In this document: positions 54,288 through 64,000 of the stretch, piece by piece
Layout: every line of letters starts with the position of its first letter
How positions within the stretch are numbered: position 1 is the stretch's first letter
NCBI RefSeq assembly: GCF_900476395.1
Contig: NZ_UIHB01000001.1
Coordinates: 773,385 to 837,384 of the forward strand
Length of the DNA stretch: 64,000 bases
Reading direction: 5' to 3'
From: Xanthomonas euroxanthea
GTDB lineage: Bacteria > Pseudomonadota > Gammaproteobacteria > Xanthomonadales > Xanthomonadaceae
Program-made: the position numbers and the translations under genes
The notes under the pieces: generated by a model
What the model saw: the letters and a program-made list of their open reading frames with translations, nothing else
Database searches by the model: none
What the model was told of the DNA's origin: nothing

Positions 54288-54310
54288 GGAGGGCGTTGCA
54301 GACGCCCTCC
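54288..54310. terminator. hairpin downstream of the M1 peptidase gene
   Basis: A perfect 9-base stem (GGAGGGCGT / ACGCCCTCC) with a 5-base loop, 8 bases past the stop codon. No T-run follows. Confidence 0.5.
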
Positions 54311-54313
54311 GTC

Positions 54314-54922
54314 GCTTCCATCGCCGCATCGTGCCTGCAACCACCGCAGTAGGAGCGCACCCGGGCGCGACAGGGCTTTCCCGGTGAAACCCGATCGCGC
54401 CCAGGTGCGCTCCTACGATGCGGGGTGGCTGATCGCGGGTGGTGCGGCAGGCCGGTATCGTTGCCGCTGCCGTCCATGCCTTCCGGAACCGACGATGCAG
54501 TCGCGCCGTGGTGCATGCCCGCCCGCCGCTTCCATCGCCGCATCGTGCCTGCAACCACCGCCGTAGGAGCGCACCCGGGCGCGACCGGGCTTTCCCGGTG
54601 AAACCCGATCGCGCCCAGGTGCGCTCCTACGATGCGGGTGGCTGATCGCGGGTGGTGCGGCAGGCCGGTATCGTTGCCGCTGCCGTCCATGCCTTCCGGA
54701 ACCGACGATGCAGTCGCGCCGTGGTGCATGCCCGCCCGCCGCTTCCATCGCCGCATCGTGCCTGCAACCACCGCCGTAGGAGCGCACCCGGGCGCGACGG
54801 TGCTCCACCGGGAAAGTCCCGTCGCGCCCGGGTGCGCTCCTACGCTTTGCGGCGGTTGATCGCGGGGCATGCGGGCAGGCTGGTATCGTTGCCGCTGCTT
54901 TTCATGCATTCCGGAGTCGACG
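54314..54922. repeat. tandem 213-bp repeat with GTAGGAGCG hairpins and copied gene leader
   Basis: Units begin at 54314, 54528 and 54741 (GCTTCCATCGCCGCATCGTG). Each unit holds a GTAGGAGCGCACCCGGGCG ... GGTGCGCTCCTAC hairpin (about 54350-54415, 54563-54631, 54777-54842). Each also has a leader, GGTATCGTTGCCGCTGC then TTCCGG(A/G) and CGACGATG. The same leader directly precedes the real start codon at 54923 of the downstream lipoprotein gene. In the first two units the copied ATG (54495 and 54708) opens an identical 23-codon frame ending at the TAG of the next hairpin (54566 and 54779). No evidence of translation is visible beyond this. Confidence 0.85.
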
Positions 54923-55642
54923 ATGAAGTATCTGCTGAGCGCGGCCTTGTGCGTCGCTGCAGTGAGTGGCTGTACTGATCGCGAGGCGCAACGCCAGGCG
55001 CAGGAAACCGCGCAGGCGCAAGCCAAGGAACACGATGCCGACGCACTCGCCAAGCAATACGACGAGGCAGTGAAGGCCGAAAACTGGGACATGGCGCGTG
55101 CGCATGGCGCCGCAGTGCTGGAAGGGTTTCCGGGCACCGCGGCGGCCACACGCATCGAGCCCGGTTATGCCGACATCAAGGCCAAGGGCGAACAGGCGCG
55201 CGAACTGCGCCGCATGCAGGCGTTGTGGCAGTACTCGCAAGTGCCGGCCAAGGGCGGCACGCAGCGCTCGGCGATGATCGATGCCAAGAGCCGCGTGGAT
55301 GTCGACGGCAGCGGCCCCAAGCCGGTGAGCCTGGTATTCCGCGATCACCCGCAGTGGAAGCGCCACAGCTATCTCGTGCTCAAGGCCGGCGACTTCAACT
55401 GCTATCGCGGCTGCAAGGTGCAGGTCTCGGTCGATGGTGGCGCACCACGCGCGATGGCCGCGCACCGCCCCGATACCGACGAAGCGATCGCGATGTTCAT
55501 CGACGACGACAAGGCGCTGTGGACGCTGGTGCGCAACGCCAAGCGCATCAGCATCGCGTTCCCGGTGAAGGCCGGCGGCACGCGCACGGCAGAGTTCGAC
55601 GTGGGCGGCCTGGAGACCACCCAGATGCCGGGCTGGAAGTAG
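54923..55642 (+). CDS. lipoprotein, unknown function
   Basis: A 239-residue lipoprotein I do not recognise. Signal peptide with lipobox AVSGC (C17), followed by a charged helical, possibly coiled-coil region (about 20-100, rich in Ala, Gln, Glu, Lys) and a C-terminal domain of beta character (from about 120) with two close cysteines in DFNCYRGCKVQVSVDGG, which could form a disulfide. CGGAG precedes the ATG. The gene is directly downstream of the 213-bp tandem repeat that carries copies of its leader, which may affect its expression. Confidence 0.75.
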   Translation: MKYLLSAALCVAAVSGCTDREAQRQAQETAQAQAKEHDADALAKQYDEAVKAENWDMARAHGAAVLEGFPGTAAATRIEPGYADIKAKGEQARELRRMQALWQYSQVPAKGGTQRSAMIDAKSRVDVDGSGPKPVSLVFRDHPQWKRHSYLVLKAGDFNCYRGCKVQVSVDGGAPRAMAAHRPDTDEAIAMFIDDDKALWTLVRNAKRISIAFPVKAGGTRTAEFDVGGLETTQMPGWK

Positions 55643-56416: not shown

Positions 56417-57066
56417 CGTGAGGGTTGGCGAGTAGGCCAGGCGCGCGGAAGGATGGATCGCGACGTGTGACTGGCCGCGTGTCGCTGGAGGTTGCTTGCG
56501 ATCAGGACATCGTCATCGCATTGGACCCCGTCATCGCATTGGAAGAGTGGCATGCGCCCGAGAGGCGTGGACGCTGCTGAATCCTGCAACGCGTCATCGG
56601 CAAGCCGGACACCACACGGGCTGTCTGCGCCGTCAACGCATCCAACCGTCTGGCAGCGTCTCCCGATGGCAGAAAGAAATGCGGCGGCACCTTGGTCAAC
56701 CCTGTCGTACGGTCTGTGGATGATCTGCGGCATCGAGTTGCACGAACCAGAGACAACCATGTCGCCTCGCGCAAGCTGAGTTCATGGCACCGGCTGACAG
56801 GCCGTTCCACATCCGCTGCGCCACCAATGTCACAGCACGCCCGGCGCAAACTGTGCCAGAACCGTGACAGTGCGCCTGACGCAAGCCACTGCCATCACTG
56901 CAGATGCCTGCTGCTACGACATGGTGCGTCGCACCAGTACGCTGGCATGGCGTTTGCTCTTTCCCTCTCGACGTTTCCGACGTCCGCGACGCAACTGGCG
57001 GGTGCAACGCCGGCGCCGCGGGATGTTTCAACCGACTGGTTGTTCAATCGAGAGGGGTAGACGCAC
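56417..57066. promoter_or_regulatory. upstream region of the quinoprotein operon
   Basis: 650 bases without a supported gene, ahead of the XoxF-like gene; it must contain the operon promoter. A 15-base direct repeat, CGTCATCGCATTGGA, occurs at 56511-56525 and 56529-56543 (18-base spacing), which could be a pair of regulator half-sites. That is inference. Confidence 0.35.
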
Positions 57067-59085
57067 ATGCACCAATCTTCCTGCCGCAGCCTGCGCAGCA
57101 ATGTGCTGCTCATGCTTGCGCTGAGCGCCGCGCTGGCCGGCTGTAAAAAAGAGGCCGCCACCGAGACCGCTGCGCCGGCACCGGCCGCTGCACCCGCCGC
57201 TGCGCCGCCGGCCGCCGCCGTGGTCGATACCGATGGCGAGTTCACCACCAATGCCAGCAATCCGGACAACTGGGGCGGCATCGGGCGCGACTTCGCGCTC
57301 ACCCGGCACAGCCCGCTGGCTGAGATCAATCGCGACAACGTCAAGAACCTGAAGATGTCGTGGGAAATGAAGACCGATGCCACGCGCGGCCGCGAAGGCC
57401 AGCCGCTGGTGATCGGCAGCATCATGTACATGGTCAGCGCGTACCCGAACAACGTGTTCGCCATCGACCTGGCGGCGCAGGACGACGGCGGCAAGGTGCT
57501 GTGGAAATACACCCCGCAGCAGGACGAGCGCTCGGTGGCGGTGGCGTGCTGCGATACGGTCAACCGTGGCGCCTCGTATGCCGATGGCAAGCTGGTGTTC
57601 GGCAGCCTGAGCGGCGATGTGATCGCGCTCGATGCCAAGACCGGCAAGGAAGTGTGGAAGCAGAAACTCGCGCACCCGGACAAGGGCGAGACCATCACCA
57701 TGGCGCCGATCATCGCCGACGGCAAGGTGGTGGCCGGCATCAGCGGCAACGAGTTCGGCGTGCTCGGGCGCGTGGCCGCCTACAACCTGGCCGATGGCAA
57801 GCAGTCCTGGTCCTGCGATGCGGCCGGCACCGACAAGGCGATCTGCCTGGGTGCGGATTTCAACAAGGCCAATCCGCAGCACGGGCAGCTCGGCGATCTG
57901 GGCGTCAAGACCTTTCCCAACGACGAATGGAAGCGTGGTGGCGGTGCGGCCTGGGGCTGGTACAGCTACGACCCGAAATTGAAGCTACTGTATTACGGCA
58001 CCGGCAATCCCGGCCTGTGGAGCCCGTCGTATCGCTGCGGCAAGACCTCGCAGGAGGAATGCAACAACGGCGAGCATGACAACAAGTGGTCGATGACGCT
58101 GTTCGCGCGCAAGATCGATACCGGCGAAGCGGTGTGGGGTTATCAAAAGACCCCGTTCGACCAGTGGGATTACGACGGCATCAACGAGCCGATCCTGGTG
58201 GATCTGAGCATCGACGGCAAGCAGGTGCCCTCGGTGGTGCAGTTCGATCGCAACGGCTTTGCCTACGTGCTCGATCGTCGCGACGGCACCTTGCTGCGCG
58301 CGCACAAGTTCGTGCCGGCCAACTGGGCCGAGCGCATCGACATGAAGACCGGCCGCCCGGTCAAGGTGGCCGCGCATTCGCCGCTGGAACGCGGCAGGAA
58401 AGTGCAGGCCTTTCCCTCGGCCATGGGCGGCAAGGACCAGCAGCCGTGCTCGGTGGATCCGGCCAACTCCGCAGTGTTCTTCTGCGGCACCAACAACTGG
58501 CACATGGAGCTGGAACCGCAGGAGCGTGGCAACACCATGATGGGCCTGCCCTACGTGTTCGCCAACGTGATGATGAAGCCCAACGAGCCCGGTGCGCTGG
58601 GCATCGTCAAGGCCTTCGATGTGGTGGAAGGCAAATCCAAGTGGGAGATCAAGGAGAAGTTCCCGGTGTGGAGCGGCACCCTGGTCACCGACGGCGGACT
58701 GGTGTTCTACGGCACGCTGGACGGCTGGTTCCGTGCGGTGGACAAGGACACCGGCAAGAAGCTGTGGGAGATGAAGCTGCCCTCCGGCATCATCGGCAAC
58801 CCGATCGCCTACAAGGCCAACGGGCACCAGTACGTGGCGGTGTTCTCCGGCATCGGCGGCTGGATCGGTCTGCCGGTGGCGGCAGGTCTGGATCCGTCCG
58901 ATCCGTATGGCGCGCTGGGGGCTGCGGGGCTGGCGTTCGGCGCCGGCTTCGACAAGATCCCGCTCGGCGGCATGGTGCACAGCTTCCGTATCGATGGTGC
59001 GGGCAAGACCGTGACCGCCGGTACCACCGCCACCGCAGCGGCAGGCGGCGGCGCGGCCAACGCCGTCGCGAAGACCGCACGATGA
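57067..59085 (+). CDS. XoxF-like PQQ-dependent alcohol dehydrogenase, lipoprotein
   Basis: A 672-residue quinoprotein of the methanol/ethanol dehydrogenase family; it oxidises alcohols in the periplasm and passes electrons to cytochrome c. The vicinal cysteine pair of the family is C161-C162 (VACCDTVNRG). Metal ligands can be placed at E229 (SGNEFGVLG), N314 (GTGNPGLWSP) and catalytic D368 in QWDYDGINEP. D370, two residues after the catalytic Asp, is the extra acid that marks lanthanide-dependent (XoxF-type) enzymes; calcium enzymes have Ala or Ser there. Repeated W-docking propeller motifs are present. Unusually, the N terminus has a lipobox ALAGC (C26) and an Ala/Pro linker, so it should be lipid-anchored. 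A 20-residue loop with two Cys (RCGKTSQEEC) follows N314. First gene of the operon; its stop overlaps the next start. Confidence 0.92.
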   Translation: MHQSSCRSLRSNVLLMLALSAALAGCKKEAATETAAPAPAAAPAAAPPAAAVVDTDGEFTTNASNPDNWGGIGRDFALTRHSPLAEINRDNVKNLKMSWEMKTDATRGREGQPLVIGSIMYMVSAYPNNVFAIDLAAQDDGGKVLWKYTPQQDERSVAVACCDTVNRGASYADGKLVFGSLSGDVIALDAKTGKEVWKQKLAHPDKGETITMAPIIADGKVVAGISGNEFGVLGRVAAYNLADGKQSWSCDAAGTDKAICLGADFNKANPQHGQLGDLGVKTFPNDEWKRGGGAAWGWYSYDPKLKLLYYGTGNPGLWSPSYRCGKTSQEECNNGEHDNKWSMTLFARKIDTGEAVWGYQKTPFDQWDYDGINEPILVDLSIDGKQVPSVVQFDRNGFAYVLDRRDGTLLRAHKFVPANWAERIDMKTGRPVKVAAHSPLERGRKVQAFPSAMGGKDQQPCSVDPANSAVFFCGTNNWHMELEPQERGNTMMGLPYVFANVMMKPNEPGALGIVKAFDVVEGKSKWEIKEKFPVWSGTLVTDGGLVFYGTLDGWFRAVDKDTGKKLWEMKLPSGIIGNPIAYKANGHQYVAVFSGIGGWIGLPVAAGLDPSDPYGALGAAGLAFGAGFDKIPLGGMVHSFRIDGAGKTVTAGTTATAAAGGGAANAVAKTAR

Positions 59086-60857
59086 GATCCACGCAAGGCG
59101 TTGCAGGCGCGCACCGGCAGTTCGCTGCCGGTGCGCGTGGTATGCCCCTGCATCTACGCAAGATGCTGGTGGTTTGCAGCCTCGGACTCGTCGCCGCAGG
59201 CTGCACACGCGAGCCGTCCTCACCGACGGCTCGCGCTTCTGATTCCGCAGCGGCGCCCACGGCGGCGACTGCCTCCAGTGCACTGCCGGCTTCGGCGCAA
59301 TCGACGGCAAGCACGCCACCGCCTGCGCCCGATCCCGCGGTGCTGCGCGTGTGTGCCGACCCGGGCAACATGCCGTTGTCCAACAAGGCTGGCGAAGGCT
59401 TTCAAAACAAGATTGCGCAGGTGGTGGCCGAGGCCATGGGCCGTCGCCTGGAATACGAGTGGCGCACCTACTACCAGCGCGGGCTGGCGCGCAGCACCAT
59501 CACTGCCGGCCGCTGCGACGTGCTGATGGACCTCAACAGCGACTTCGAGCAGGGCCTGACCACGCGCCCGCTGTATCGCTCGGCCTATGTGCTGGTGACG
59601 CGCAAGGGCCTGGATCTGGTGCCGACCTCGCTGGACGAGCCGGCGCTGAAGAAGCTGCGGCTGGGCGTGTTCCAGAGTTCGCCCGCACGCCAGGCCCTGT
59701 ACGAGCATGGCATCAGCGGCGAGGTGCAGTACCTGTTCTACGACTCGGCCACCGCGCCGGAAGAACATCCCGGCAAGCTGGTCGAACGCGTCGCCGCCAA
59801 TGAACTGGATGCGGCCGAATCCTGGGGCCCGGTGGCCGGCTATTACGCCCGGCGCAACGGCCTGGGCGTGGTGCCGCTCAATACCATCGACGATGCAGTG
59901 CTGGAGTATTCGATGGCGTGGGCGGTGTCACGCAAGAATGCGCAGCTGCGCGATGCCCTGAACACGGCGATGCAGCAGAGCGCGGCAAACATCGCGCAGA
60001 TCCTGCGCAGCTATCACGTGCCGCTGGTGCGCTGCAGCGAGTGCGTGGTGAGCGGCGATCTGGCCGCGCATGGGCCGTATGCGACGCCGACGCCAGTGTC
60101 CAAGGCGCCAAGCCCGGCCGCATCCTCGCAGCAACTGGCGCAGCTGCAACTGCGCATCGCCGACGGTGCCGACCCGAACCAGGAGCTGGCGCATGCGCTG
60201 GATGCCGGCGATGGCGTGCGTGCGGCGTGGTTGTTGCGGCATGGCGCCGATGTCAATCGGCCCAACCTGCTTGGCGAGCCGCCGTTGCATCAGGCCATCC
60301 GCAATCAGGAACCGGAGCTGGTCGGTCTGTTGCTCGATGCCGGTGGAGCCCTGGATGCACGCGATGCCAGTGGCTGGACCGCGTTGATGAAAGCCGCATG
60401 GGCCAACGATGCCGACAGTGTGGCCAGGTTGCTCGGCAAGCGTGCGTCGGTGGACACCGTCTCCGGCGACGGCTGGAGCGCGCTGGAGCTGGCGGTGGCC
60501 TACGCCGATGTCGGCGTGGTGCAGGCATTGCTGAAGGCGGGGGCGGACGTGCGGCGTTCCAATCCCGCCGGCTTCACCCCGGTGATGTTTGCGGTGGCGC
60601 GCGAGGACCCGGCGATTCTCGATGCGGTGCTGGCCGGCGGCGCCGAGGTCGGCCACGCGAATCAGGCTGGTGTCACTGCATTGATGCTGGCCGCTGCGGC
60701 CGGGCGCGAGGCGGTGGCCAGGCGCTTGCTGGCGGCCGGCGCAGACCCGTCCGCACGCAATCGCGACGGCAAGACCGCCGCCGCATTGGCGCAGGCACGC
60801 GGCGATGGCGCGCTGGCCGCGCTGCTCACCCAGGCCAGGCACCCGTCCCGGCAATGA
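59082..60857 (+). CDS. XoxJ-like periplasmic binding protein fused to ankyrin repeats, lipoprotein
   Basis: A 591-residue three-part protein. Residues 1 to about 85: signal peptide, lipobox VAAGC (C41) and a long Ser/Ala/Pro linker. About 88-325: a solute-binding fold of the quinoprotein-dehydrogenase-associated (XoxJ) type, opening with LRVCADPGNMPLSNKAGEGF, then RCDVLMDL, LRLGVFQSSPARQAL and LDAAESWGPVAGYYA. About 360-585: about seven ankyrin repeats, several with near-consensus blocks (GWTALMKAAW, VVQALLKAGADV, ARRLLAAGADPSARNRDG). The ATG at 59082 overlaps the xoxF stop in ATGA; an ATG at 59142 would give a more typical short lipoprotein signal. XoxJ is thought to help load or activate XoxF; the ankyrin part is likely a protein-binding platform (inference). 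Confidence 0.88.
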   Translation: MRSTQGVAGAHRQFAAGARGMPLHLRKMLVVCSLGLVAAGCTREPSSPTARASDSAAAPTAATASSALPASAQSTASTPPPAPDPAVLRVCADPGNMPLSNKAGEGFQNKIAQVVAEAMGRRLEYEWRTYYQRGLARSTITAGRCDVLMDLNSDFEQGLTTRPLYRSAYVLVTRKGLDLVPTSLDEPALKKLRLGVFQSSPARQALYEHGISGEVQYLFYDSATAPEEHPGKLVERVAANELDAAESWGPVAGYYARRNGLGVVPLNTIDDAVLEYSMAWAVSRKNAQLRDALNTAMQQSAANIAQILRSYHVPLVRCSECVVSGDLAAHGPYATPTPVSKAPSPAASSQQLAQLQLRIADGADPNQELAHALDAGDGVRAAWLLRHGADVNRPNLLGEPPLHQAIRNQEPELVGLLLDAGGALDARDASGWTALMKAAWANDADSVARLLGKRASVDTVSGDGWSALELAVAYADVGVVQALLKAGADVRRSNPAGFTPVMFAVAREDPAILDAVLAGGAEVGHANQAGVTALMLAAAAGREAVARRLLAAGADPSARNRDGKTAAALAQARGDGALAALLTQARHPSRQ

Positions 60858-60918
60858 CTGTGTCACCCGCCGCGCGCACGGGGTGCGCGGTGTTCCCTCC
60901 GACCAGAAAGGTTCGTTC

Positions 60919-61527
60919 ATGCGCAAGTCCACCGTGGGTTGTTCCGATCGTTCCATGCGCGCACCGCTGTGCGCGGTGATGCTCAGCGTCGTGCTGGCCG
61001 CCTGCGGCAAGCCGGCACCACCGCCCGCGCCCGAGGCGGCCGCTGCCAGTCCACCTGCGCCGGCCACCACCGGCGCCGCCGCGCCGGCGCCCGCAGCGGC
61101 GCCCGCCGGGATGCCCAACCCGGCCGCCGGGCCTGCACCGGATCCGGCCACCCCGCCCGCAGCGCCGGCCACCGTCGTGGCGATCCCGAAGGGGCCGGAG
61201 GTCAAGGTCACTCCCGAACTGATCGCCGAAGGCAAGAAGATCTATTTCTCGGCCGGCTGCAATGCCTGCCATGGCGGCACCGGTGGCGGCGGCATGTGCC
61301 CGCCGTTGACCAACGACATCTGGGTGTATGGCAGCGACGACGACACCTTGCGTACGCTGATCAGCGAGGGCACCGCCGCGATGATCACCCACGGCAAGAC
61401 CCGCATCGGGCATGAGAAGGTGGTCGGGCAGATGCCGCCGTTCGCGCCGGTGCTCAAGCCGGGCGACACCGAGAAACTGCTCGCCTTCATCCATTCGATC
61501 AACAAGACCGCGGGCAAGGCGCAATGA
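60919..61527 (+). CDS. c-type cytochrome, lipoprotein (probable electron acceptor)
   Basis: A 202-residue monoheme cytochrome. Lipobox VLAAC (C29) is followed by a linker of some 55 residues made almost only of Ala and Pro, then a small cytochrome domain (about 95-200) with the heme site C114-N-A-C117-H118 and probable axial Met M172 in GQMPPF. The LTNDIWVYGSDDDTLRTLISEG segment is typical of cytochromes that serve quinoprotein dehydrogenases (XoxG/PedF type). It is in the XoxF operon and overlaps the next gene by ATGA. It should accept electrons from the XoxF-like enzyme. Confidence 0.92.
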   Translation: MRKSTVGCSDRSMRAPLCAVMLSVVLAACGKPAPPPAPEAAAASPPAPATTGAAAPAPAAAPAGMPNPAAGPAPDPATPPAAPATVVAIPKGPEVKVTPELIAEGKKIYFSAGCNACHGGTGGGGMCPPLTNDIWVYGSDDDTLRTLISEGTAAMITHGKTRIGHEKVVGQMPPFAPVLKPGDTEKLLAFIHSINKTAGKAQ

Positions 61528-62585
61528 GGCCAGCGCCCATCGGGTGGCAGCGCGTCCTGGCGACCACCGCGCTGGGCGTGCTGCTGGGCCTGGCCGGTTG
61601 CCGGCGCGATGCGCAGCCGCCCGCGGCAAACGCTGCGCCGGCGACAACGACGACTGCGGCTCCTGCAGCAACACCGGCGCCATCGACACCGCCGGTGTTT
61701 GCGTATGTGCCCAATCAACGCAGCGGTACGGTATCGGTGATCGATACGCACAGCGATACGGTGGTGCGCACGCTCAGCGCGCAGGGGCAACTGGGCAAGC
61801 GCTTGCAGCAGGTGTTGCCGGGCCCGCACGGGCATCTGTACCTGATCGATGCCGAGCATCACCGCCTGATCGAACTGGATACCGAAAAGGACGCGGTGCT
61901 GCGCAGCGTGCAGATCGGCGAGAACGCCGAGGGCATCGCGCTGTCGCCGGACGGCAGGCAGTTCGCGGTGTGCGTGGAAGGGCAGAACCAGGTGATGCTG
62001 ATCGATGCGGCGCAGTTCCGCGTGCAACAGGTGATCGCCACGCGCGGGCAGGCGCCGGAGCATTGCGCCTACACGCCGGACGGGCGGTGGTTGCTCACCA
62101 GCAACGAAGGTTCCAACGACATGGACATGATCGAGCTGGCCACCCATCGATCGCGCGGTGTGGTCGCCACCAGCGGCCATCCGCGCGGCATGGCATTCGC
62201 CCCGGACGGGCACAGCGTCTACATCGCGCAGGAGACCGCCAACGTGGTGGACGTGATCGACCTGCAGGCGCGCCGACGCCGCGCCAGCCTGCCGGCCGGC
62301 GTACGCACGGCGGGCGTGGCGTTGTCGGCCGATGGCACGCGGCTGTATGCGTCCAACGGCGGTGCCGGCACGGTCAGCGTGATCGATACCCAAAACGCGC
62401 GCAGGCTTGCCGAGATCGCGGTGGGGCTGCGGCCGTGGAATCCGGCGCTGACCCCGGCCGGCGACAAGCTGTATGTCGCCAACGGGCGCTCGAACACCGT
62501 GAGCGTGATCGACACCGTCGCGTTGCGCGAGATCAAACAGATCCCCGTCGGCGACCTGCCGTGGGGCGTGGTCATCGCGCGCTGA
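61524..62585 (+). CDS. YVTN beta-propeller lipoprotein linked to PQQ catabolism
   Basis: A 353-residue protein with signal peptide, lipobox GLAGC (C26), an Ala/Pro/Thr linker (about 28-58) and a seven-bladed propeller built of YVTN-type repeats: VFAYVPNQRSGTVSVIDT, GIALSPDGRQF, GMAFAPDGHSVYIAQE, GVALSADGTRLYASNGG and KLYVANGRSNTVSVIDT. It fits the 'PQQ-dependent catabolism-associated beta-propeller' group found beside quinoprotein dehydrogenases. Its role is unknown; binding or scaffolding is likely. The start overlaps the cytochrome stop. Confidence 0.9.
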   Translation: MRPAPIGWQRVLATTALGVLLGLAGCRRDAQPPAANAAPATTTTAAPAATPAPSTPPVFAYVPNQRSGTVSVIDTHSDTVVRTLSAQGQLGKRLQQVLPGPHGHLYLIDAEHHRLIELDTEKDAVLRSVQIGENAEGIALSPDGRQFAVCVEGQNQVMLIDAAQFRVQQVIATRGQAPEHCAYTPDGRWLLTSNEGSNDMDMIELATHRSRGVVATSGHPRGMAFAPDGHSVYIAQETANVVDVIDLQARRRRASLPAGVRTAGVALSADGTRLYASNGGAGTVSVIDTQNARRLAEIAVGLRPWNPALTPAGDKLYVANGRSNTVSVIDTVALREIKQIPVGDLPWGVVIAR

Positions 62586-62620
62586 GCGGCGGACATGCCG
62601 ACGCGCGCCAGGGGGGCCGG

Positions 62621-63727
62621 ATGAAGACACGCGCTGCGGTGGCATGGGGTCCGCACCAGCCGCTGACCATCGAAGAGGTGGACCTGCAGCCGCCGCGGCC
62701 CGGCGAGGTGCTGGTGCGCCTGGTCGCCACCGGTATCTGCCACGGCGATGCGCATGCGTTGGCGCACGGGCAGGCGAGCAGCTTTCCGGCGATCCTGGGG
62801 CAGGAGGGCGCGGGCATCGTCGAGGCAATCGGCATCGGCGTCACCAGCGTGCAGCCCGGCGATCACGTCATCCCGCTGTACATGCCCGAGTGCGGCGTGT
62901 GCAAGTTCTGCCGCTCCGGTCGCACCAACCTGTGCCAGGCGATCCGCAGCAGCCAGGAGCGCGGCCTGATGCCCGACGGCAGCAGCCGGTTCTCGTTGCA
63001 CGGCCGGCCGATCCTGCACCACATGGGCACCAGCACGTTTTCCGAATACACCGTGGTGCCGGAGATCGCGGTCGCGCGGATCCCGCCGGATGCACCGCTG
63101 GATCAGGTCTGCCTGCTTGGCTGCACGGTCACCACCGGCGTCGGTGCGGTGCTCAACAGCACGCATGTGCGGCCCGGCGACTGCGTGGCAGTGTTCGGCC
63201 TGGGCGGCATCGGCCTGTCGGTGGTGCAGGGCGCGGTGCTGGCGCAGGCCGGGCGCATCATCGCGGTGGATATCGACCCGGCCAAGTTCGCGCTGGCGCG
63301 TGCCCTGGGCGCCACCGATTGCCTGGACCCGCGCGACTACGGCGCGCCGATCCAGCAGGTGATCGTGGACCTCACCGATGGCGGCGCCGACCACAGCTTC
63401 GAATGCGTGGGCGATGTCGGCGCGATGCGCGCGGCGCTGGAGTGCTGCCACAAGGGCTGGGGCGAGAGCGTCATCCTCGGCGTGGCCGACGACGCGCAGG
63501 AAATAAGCACGCGCCCGTTTCAGCTGGTGACCGGGCGGGTGTGGCGCGGCAGCGCGTTCGGCGGGGTGAAAGGGCGCAGCGAGCTGCCCGGCTATGTCGC
63601 GCGCTATCTGCATGGCGATCTGCAGCTGGCACCGTTGATCACCCGCATCCTGGCGCTGGACGACATCAATCAGGCGCTGGCGGATCTACGCGCGGCGCGT
63701 GGCATCAAATCGATCGTGCTTTATTGA
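62621..63727 (+). CDS. class III-like zinc alcohol dehydrogenase with altered active site
   Basis: A 368-residue medium-chain dehydrogenase that follows the S-(hydroxymethyl)glutathione dehydrogenase family along its whole length: GDHVIPLYMPECGVCKFC with the four structural-zinc cysteines, RTNLCQAIR, GLMPDGSSRFS, MGTSTFSEYTVV, VAVFGLGGIGLSVVQGA (NAD loop), SFECVG and TRPFQLVTGRVWRG. The active site differs: the zinc ligand His of GHEGAG is Gln61 here (GQEGAG), and the proton-relay Thr of CHTDA is Gly (C40-H-G-D-A). Cys40 and Cys168 are kept. It may still handle formaldehyde or aldehyde from the upstream oxidase, but with changed chemistry. GGGGGG precedes the ATG; 35 bases after the propeller gene. 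Confidence 0.9.
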   Translation: MKTRAAVAWGPHQPLTIEEVDLQPPRPGEVLVRLVATGICHGDAHALAHGQASSFPAILGQEGAGIVEAIGIGVTSVQPGDHVIPLYMPECGVCKFCRSGRTNLCQAIRSSQERGLMPDGSSRFSLHGRPILHHMGTSTFSEYTVVPEIAVARIPPDAPLDQVCLLGCTVTTGVGAVLNSTHVRPGDCVAVFGLGGIGLSVVQGAVLAQAGRIIAVDIDPAKFALARALGATDCLDPRDYGAPIQQVIVDLTDGGADHSFECVGDVGAMRAALECCHKGWGESVILGVADDAQEISTRPFQLVTGRVWRGSAFGGVKGRSELPGYVARYLHGDLQLAPLITRILALDDINQALADLRAARGIKSIVLY

Positions 63728-63737
63728 GGGAGACGAC

Positions 63738-64000
63738 ATGAGGTCGACGCATCACTTACCGTGGGATCGCAGCACACCGCCGCTTCGCGTCGCACACCAT
63801 GGCCGCGATGCATTGCAACGACATCGGCTTGCCTGCGCCTGCGCAGCGCTGCTGTGCGCTGGTACGGTCGGCACTGCGATGGCCGAAGACGCGCCGCAGG
63901 TGACCTGGCTGGACCGCATCGAGGTCACCGCCACGCCGATTCCCGGCACCACCATCGATGCGGCGCAACTGCCGTACATGGTGCAGTCGGCCACCGGCAG
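63738..64000 (+). CDS. TonB-dependent outer-membrane receptor, N-terminal part
   Basis: Partial gene, cut by the window end; 87 codons are visible. A long signal peptide ends near TVGTAMAEDAP, followed by a TonB box-like RIEVTATPIPG and the start of the plug domain (AAQLPYMVQSATG). GGGAG precedes the ATG, which is only 10 bases after the dehydrogenase stop, so it belongs to the same operon. By context it could import a substrate, metal chelate or cofactor used by the quinoprotein system, which is inference. Confidence 0.85.
   Translation, partial: MRSTHHLPWDRSTPPLRVAHHGRDALQRHRLACACAALLCAGTVGTAMAEDAPQVTWLDRIEVTATPIPGTTIDAAQLPYMVQSATG

Follow-up and report, generated by a model that had tools for sequence, protein, structure and literature searches.

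The window analysed here is a 64,000-base stretch of Xanthomonas euroxanthea DNA taken from a 1.6 Mb contig (bases 773385-837384); the genome has 4.9 Mb and a completeness rating of 100%. At its right-hand end lies a run of six genes on the forward strand, headed by xoxF1 (57067..59085), which encodes a lanthanide-type alcohol dehydrogenase of the pyrroloquinoline quinone (PQQ) family. The 672-residue product is a predicted lipoprotein (LAGC followed by KKEA). It is followed by xoxJ-ank (59082..60857), joining a XoxJ periplasmic-binding domain to ankyrin repeats and likewise a predicted lipoprotein (AAGC followed by TREP), a single-haem c-type cytochrome gene (60919..61527; haem motif CNACH, Pfam cytochrome c) and a YVTN beta-propeller gene (61524..62585; TIGR02276 repeats). 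A gene of the class III alcohol dehydrogenase (ADH) family (62621..63727) comes next, and then the first part of a TonB-dependent receptor gene (63738..64000), which runs past the window end and is complete at L012:8123-10555 (810 residues). Further on, an AcoR-like sigma-54 activator gene is convergent on the minus strand (L012:10653-12626). The initial annotation, made from the letters alone, had described six close-packed genes with ATGA overlaps at two junctions. All six are in place, and the overlaps fall at xoxF/xoxJ (59082-59085) and cytochrome/propeller (61524-61527). The cytochrome gene starts 61 bp past the xoxJ-ank stop, the ADH gene 35 bp past the propeller stop and the receptor gene 10 bp past the ADH stop.

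Among 25 tabulated Xanthomonas loci, 24 carry all six genes in the same order, with 68-100% identity in the aligned pieces; at the exception, L038, the contig ends inside the cytochrome gene. Our Xanthomonas locus counts (25 or 26) contain some strains entered twice, and those of 25 exclude L043, L138, L139 and L140. Since this order is kept so widely, the operon is more than a chance arrangement. XoxF itself is 94-96% identical in Xanthomonas floridensis, dyei, cissicola, prunicola, phaseoli and euvesicatoria, which bears out the genus assignment.

The xoxF product scores 593 bits against TIGR03075 (cut-off 480). In a phmmer comparison with the PDB it reaches 877 bits with 7o6z (XoxF1), 625 with 4mae (XoxF2), 516 with 4tqo (MxaF), 511 with 6oc5 and 322 with 6zcv (a quinoprotein ethanol dehydrogenase). 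The closest solved structure, 7o6z, is a neodymium enzyme, the XoxF1 methanol dehydrogenase of Methylacidimicrobium thermophilum AP8, with 64% identity to Xanthomonas XoxF. In a tree of 83 rows, Xanthomonas XoxF, 41 other loci and 7o6z share one side of a branch with support of 100 in the Shimodaira-Hasegawa-like approximate likelihood ratio test, and the MxaF, XoxF2 and XoxF5 references all stand across it. The tree was made by a quick method with midpoint root and no bootstrap, and it holds no XoxF3, XoxF4, PedE or PedH reference rows; L056, L076 and L080, whose XoxF frames are broken or cut, were dropped from the tree and the residue counts. A phylogeny had been proposed in the initial annotation as a check on its lanthanide reading, and the placement in the XoxF1 clade with 7o6z does not speak against that reading. 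An MxaF identity is ruled out by the PDB scores and the clade placement, and an ethanol- or glucose-dehydrogenase identity by the PDB and genome searches and the tree. The remaining genome matches to XoxF are short, score no more than 53 bits and fall in open frames of 535-881 residues, and thus XoxF appears to be the sole dehydrogenase of its family in the genome.

The D368-Y-D370 motif, already read from the letters, is exact. The lanthanide ligand set is complete in the alignment (E229, N314, D368, D370), and the ligand Glu is replaced by Asp in one aligned row only, L058. The equivalent of Asp370 is present in every XoxF row, versus Ala in both MxaF references in our own alignment. The available text of PMC11845868 lists the same E/N/D/D ligands for 7O6Z, 6FKW and 6OC6. 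Judged from these residues and the clade, lanthanide-dependent alcohol oxidation is well supported.

On the other hand, the Xanthomonas enzyme differs from 7o6z next to the metal. The Asp before the ligand Glu is called diagnostic for XoxF1, and a Cys in 7o6z, which makes room for it, is said to compensate (PMC8546591, available text); the Xanthomonas enzyme has Asn228 and Ala294 at these two positions. All nine Xanthomonadaceae have Asn at position 228. Of the 33 other XoxF1 loci, 32 have Asp and L073 has Ala, and the 35 non-XoxF1 loci all have Gly. Asn228 is also found in all 22 rows of the family search, whose strains are partly shared with the nine Xanthomonadaceae. According to the tree, Asn is a change within the XoxF1 clade, so the claim of a diagnostic Asp is narrowed. 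Further differences from 7o6z are the XoxF lipobox and the sigma-54 promoter, altered ADH and receptor of the operon.

The second gene product scores 260 bits against TIGR03871 (cut-off 212) and carries Pfam ankyrin repeats. Its PDB matches are XoxJ 6onp over residues 57-317 (142 bits) and ankyrins over about 362-586. The description as a XoxJ-like protein therefore holds for the first part, which is homologous to the periplasmic-binding domain of 6onp. An ordinary XoxJ is ruled out by the in-frame fusion and the PDB matches: unlike 6onp, the Xanthomonas protein is a XoxJ-ankyrin fusion, with a CxxC...HGxY linker between the two parts and a lipobox. The linker signature lies at 60033..60071 on the forward strand, with C318 at 60033-60035, C321 at 60042-60044 and H330 at 60069-60071. 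The AlphaFold model (mean predicted local distance difference test score 83.3, predicted template modelling score 0.50) shows a confident XoxJ domain, a loose stretch at 286-298, and seven helix pairs, which we read as the ankyrin repeats.

XoxJ is in frame with ankyrin repeats in 40 of the 42 judged loci of the XoxF1 clade versus 0/32 judged loci of other XoxF clades. The scans covered 45 XoxF1-clade loci, among which L056, L076 and L080 yielded no XoxJ to judge, and 35 other-clade loci, among which L086, L105 and L106 had no downstream XoxJ. The two unfused cases are L047, where the XoxJ frame stops early with an ankyrin nearby, and L073, at a contig end. Verrucomicrobial relatives of AP8 (L044, L045, L064) likewise have a XoxJ-ankyrin neighbour. 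Cys, Cys, Gly, His, Gly and Tyr of the linker are invariant in 38/38 aligned XoxJ-ankyrin proteins, namely the window protein and 37 of 43 frames; the frames left out are L070, which is very long, the cut frame L072, and L077, L083, L090 and L096, which are not XoxF1. A regular expression for the linker, too strict and missing some, matches 30/42 XoxF1 frames versus 0/32 XoxJ of other clades. No published description of the fusion was found in a literature search with most subscription journals outside its scope. We also notice XoxJ frames with a CxxCH haem motif in L077 (open reading frame, ORF, from 5338; an Acidobacteria metagenome-assembled genome) and L083 (ORF from 11917; a Binatia one), perhaps XoxJ-cytochrome fusions.

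Lipoboxes near the N-terminus, called by regular expression only, are found in Xanthomonas loci in 24/25 XoxF, 25/25 cytochromes, 23/24 propellers and 21/25 XoxJ, and all four proteins are predicted to be lipidated in this genus. Elsewhere, XoxF has a lipobox in 1/34 other XoxF1 and 0/35 other XoxF loci, and XoxJ in 0/33 and 0/32, respectively. Other Xanthomonadaceae are mixed: L043 and L138 have it in XoxJ and the cytochrome with none in XoxF, L139 has no lipoboxes, and the cytochrome-like match of L140 has one. The cytochrome c is the probable electron acceptor of XoxF, in the role of XoxG. The propeller scores 163.5 bits against TIGR03866, below the cut-off of 287.

The operon ADH scores 595 bits against the equivalog model TIGR02818 (cut-off 544) and aligns over its full length to human class III ADH (1m6h, a glutathione-dependent formaldehyde dehydrogenase) with 470 bits. 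Unlike the human enzyme, with CHTDA and GHEGAG, it reads CHGDA and GQEGAG. Gln61 takes the place of a His, which we take to be the catalytic zinc ligand, in 24/24 Xanthomonas operon copies. Gly42 replaces the Thr of CHTD, a position held by Gly or Ser (CHGD/CHSD) among the Xanthomonas copies and reading CQSD in L129. Cys40, Cys168 and Arg109 are retained. The His is kept in the genome's own paralogue (L116), in each of the seven ADHs from other loci that were compared and in L139. In the ADH tree, a long branch with support of 100/100 unites the 14 operon copies included, and the ratio of nonsynonymous to synonymous rates is 0.09-0.10 in three comparisons, so the gene is kept by purifying selection. 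Thus, of the earlier class III-like ADH, the family assignment stands and the standard active site does not. The His to Gln and CHTD changes argue against a plain FrmA.

A -24/-12 promoter of sigma-54 type, TGGCATGGCGTTTGCT, is located at 56943..56958 on the forward strand, 124 bp ahead of the xoxF start. The pattern TGGCA[CT]G-N4-[TG]TGCT precedes xoxF in all 26 Xanthomonas loci inspected; L032, from a neighbouring genus (g30) and counted apart, has it too. The GG and GC cores of the pattern stand at a fixed spacing and are kept across species. Within 420 bp, a site with no more than one mismatch was found in 8/8 Xanthomonas loci versus 38 of 6324 control segments, these sites included. Strict matches in the whole genome number 11 versus 2 for a backwards control, and the genome has two rpoN genes. 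When 22 distinct promoters from Xanthomonas were aligned (excluding L038, L043, L138, L139 and L140), three blocks stood out as conserved against otherwise diverged sequence. One is the ribosome-binding site and another the -24/-12 region; the third, with GGCRCAAASTGTGCC at its centre, lies about 100 bp upstream of the latter. We regard the upstream block as a candidate activator site (56828..56869, forward strand), comprising TGTCAC (56828-56833), the near-palindrome GGCGCAAACTGTGCC (56843-56857) and GTGACA (56864-56869). The upstream pattern GGCRCAAANTGTGCC has a single match in the 4.9 Mb genome, and the backwards control has none. Apart from this, a tandem array lies upstream of the operon region at 54309-54929 of the window (213-bp unit, 2.9 copies, 92% matches).

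The AcoR-like gene is found downstream of the receptor, convergent, in 21 of 25 Xanthomonas loci. Among those lacking it, L038 reaches a contig end and L130 has room with no such gene there. The activator has sigma-54 AAA+ and Fis-type DNA-binding domains, and its N-terminal part is presumably akin to AcoR and BmoR. It shares these domains and a position near an alcohol operon with the alcohol-responsive activators of that kind; unlike them, it would control a lanthanide enzyme, and its pairing with the xoxF promoter is suggested by position and conservation. In L085 and L110, on the XoxF5 side, a related AcoR-like activator has the same helix core, ALGISRNTLYRKLR. Both loci have 0-mismatch -24/-12 sites before xoxF and between the activator and an ADH, and a TGTCAC half-site lies 91-94 bp before each of the four sites. 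The pairing of activator and site thus seems to recur independently there.

Other loci show related arrangements. The cluster at L085:9664-19909, XoxF5-side, contains the AcoR-like activator and a class III ADH and adjoins ORFs that we read as pqqE- and pqqC-like; it also has a short ORF that, in our reading, resembles a glutathione-dependent formaldehyde-activating enzyme. At L139, from another Xanthomonadaceae genus, the -24/-12-like TGGCACGTCCTGTGCT (L139:290-305) precedes a class III ADH gene (GHE, standard residues) upstream of xoxF1, and the exact half-site is found in this ADH promoter as well. NtrC-type matches beside L044 and L064 span the AAA+ and DNA-binding parts only. The studied genome encodes a second AcoR-like activator, 39% identical (G000:C10:127264-129048, L149), with a gene of the ADH family close by at C10:131058. 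In PMC11845868, a figure legend already names a 'GAF-modulated sigma 54-specific' regulator among xox/mxa cluster genes, so the association is not wholly new. What is new here is the mapped promoter with its upstream site; our literature search found no published description of a sigma-54 (RpoN) promoter for xoxF or lanthanide genes.

Another check put forward in the initial annotation, the presence of pqqABCDE, gave a positive answer: the genes are in the genome, with pqqC at C7:3762-4475; pqqB, pqqC and pqqE were assigned by family, and the pqqA peptide and pqqD were read by eye from ORFs. At E<=1e-150, xoxF1 has a match in 23 of 247 sampled family genomes and 6 of 54 genera, the match in G074 being only 47% identical. 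Xanthomonadaceae are stated to have xoxF1 in PMC9258066 (available text); the main text of PMC3927605, the source cited there, contains neither 'methanol' nor 'xoxF', and the available part of PMC5606694 mentions Xanthomonas only in its reference list. XoxF1 in this family is therefore already published, and the operon architecture is new.

Taken together, we favour, with a probability of about 0.7, an XoxF1-type module for PQQ- and lanthanide-dependent oxidation of methanol or a short-chain alcohol, tethered to a membrane on its periplasmic side and switched by sigma-54. The AcoR-like activator, probably sensing the alcohol or its aldehyde, would bind about 100 bp upstream and open the -24/-12 promoter. 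XoxF1, with PQQ and a light lanthanide, would convert alcohol into aldehyde, and the electrons, judging from the family, would pass through the lipidated cytochrome c into the respiratory chain. The XoxJ-ankyrin protein may act as a maturation or docking factor of XoxF1, as its XoxJ part suggests, with the ankyrin repeats probably keeping partners together. The TonB receptor may import a lanthanide chelate, or possibly PQQ. Formaldehyde would fall to the class III paralogue L116, whose residues are standard, instead of to the altered operon ADH. The initial proposal of a lanthanide-dependent oxidation pathway is thus sustained for the enzyme type, by clade, ligands and pqq genes, and falls short for a complete pathway, given the altered ADH, the missing fae and the low HxlA score.

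Several observations weigh against this module. The residue beside the metal ligand is Asn and not the XoxF1 Asp, and kinetics and metal preference may differ accordingly. Such an Asn, unlike every aligned reference, might suit an enzyme that is calcium-dependent or metal-promiscuous despite its second Asp; with Asp370 shared by all XoxF rows, Ala in both MxaF references and the XoxF1 placement, we consider this highly improbable. In the genome search fae gave no match, RuMP_HxlA (ribulose monophosphate pathway) reached 27.5 bits (cut-off 200), and Fdh-alpha reached 516.5 bits, below its cut-off of 666. No assimilation route was detected, only fae and HxlA having been sought and the serine cycle not searched. 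As there is no fae and no over-threshold RuMP enzyme, alcohol use is probably dissimilatory, likely serving energy or detoxification and not growth with methanol as the only carbon source; that the methanol comes from plant cell walls is conjecture. A lanthanide-dependent enzyme acting on another short alcohol or aldehyde (ethanol, formaldehyde, a plant volatile) in place of methanol is possible, and agrees with the lack of a one-carbon assimilation gene among the two sought, with the altered ADH and with the high sensitivity of the sigma-54 activator BmoR to C4-C6 alcohols (PMC6366067, available text). We hold it to be clearly the less probable choice, because the enzyme is 64% identical to 7o6z, whose Michaelis constant for methanol is 1.4 uM and which oxidises formaldehyde too (PMC8546591), and because methanol dehydrogenases (7o6z and 4mae) take the two top places among its solved relatives. 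The operon ADH, for its part, lacks the full class III zinc ligand set of Cys, His and Cys and so looks catalytically altered. That it is nevertheless an ordinary glutathione-dependent formaldehyde dehydrogenase completing the pathway seems doubtful: the TIGR02818 score, the retained Cys40, Cys168 and Arg109, the selection ratio of about 0.1 and the class III ADHs with standard residues near xoxF in L054, L071, L085, L110 and L139 agree with such a role, whereas the His to Gln change in all 24 Xanthomonas copies, the loss of the CHTD Thr and the standard-residue paralogue L116 argue against it. The receptor has one 29-bit match in the PDB and no near solved relative, and a lanthanide-chelate cargo of the kind carried by LutH-type receptors is therefore a guess. 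Finally, among 13 same-genus genomes listed, 10 match xoxF1 at E<=1e-150 and three (G092, G175, G192) do not, which suggests loss in some lineages.

The regulatory part is open to similar objections. Sites with at most one mismatch precede xoxF in only 2 of 72 non-Xanthomonas loci (L085, L110), and in twelve further loci examined the best sites have 2 mismatches (L050, L071, L075, L107), 3 (L044, L064, L138) or 4-6 (L043, L045, L054, L096, L139). A sigma-54 switch as an XoxF1-wide trait is thereby ruled out; with good sites nearly confined to Xanthomonas, the switch is a trait of this genus. AcoR-like genes are common, and this activator family is broad: the same-genome paralogue is 39% identical versus 43% for the L085 protein. 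The specificity of the upstream site is also in question, as the exact TGTCAC/GTGACA half-site occurs in only 14/25 Xanthomonas promoters (control 83/3855 segments) and the Xanthomonas near-palindrome is absent from L085 and L110. One might then suppose that the upstream blocks are no sigma-54 control region and that the AcoR-like gene serves other targets, a view to which the paralogue, the GTGCT instead of TTGCT in some Xanthomonas sites and a second strict -24/-12 match elsewhere in the window (23743) would lend some weight. The enrichment in 8/8 Xanthomonas loci over the control segments, the conserved footprint with its upstream pattern unique in the genome and the independent recurrence in L085 and L110 make it improbable.

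A bolder extension of the favoured module is tentative, and we think it rather unlikely as a whole. XoxF1 may need a XoxJ-ankyrin scaffold throughout its clade, with the CxxC...H linker engaged in maturation through metal, thiol or PQQ. In Xanthomonas this would become a lipid-anchored 'lanthanosome' of several lipoproteins under alcohol-sensing sigma-54 control, with an ADH repurposed away from zinc hydride transfer, perhaps to sense an aldehyde or NADH, or to work with another metal.

To our knowledge, Xanthomonas is not regarded as a genus of methylotrophs. If lanthanide use is as the enzyme's residues and clade suggest, lanthanide chemistry would extend across much of this plant-associated genus. 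In a survey of methane oxidisers, XoxF1 was linked to acidic or hot habitats (PMC12482762, available text); its presence here indicates that XoxF1 reaches beyond organisms of such habitats. The promoter with its single-copy upstream site and the clade-wide XoxJ-ankyrin fusion provide testable handles, and so do the catalytic metal sites at which Asn or Gln occurs as a natural substitution.

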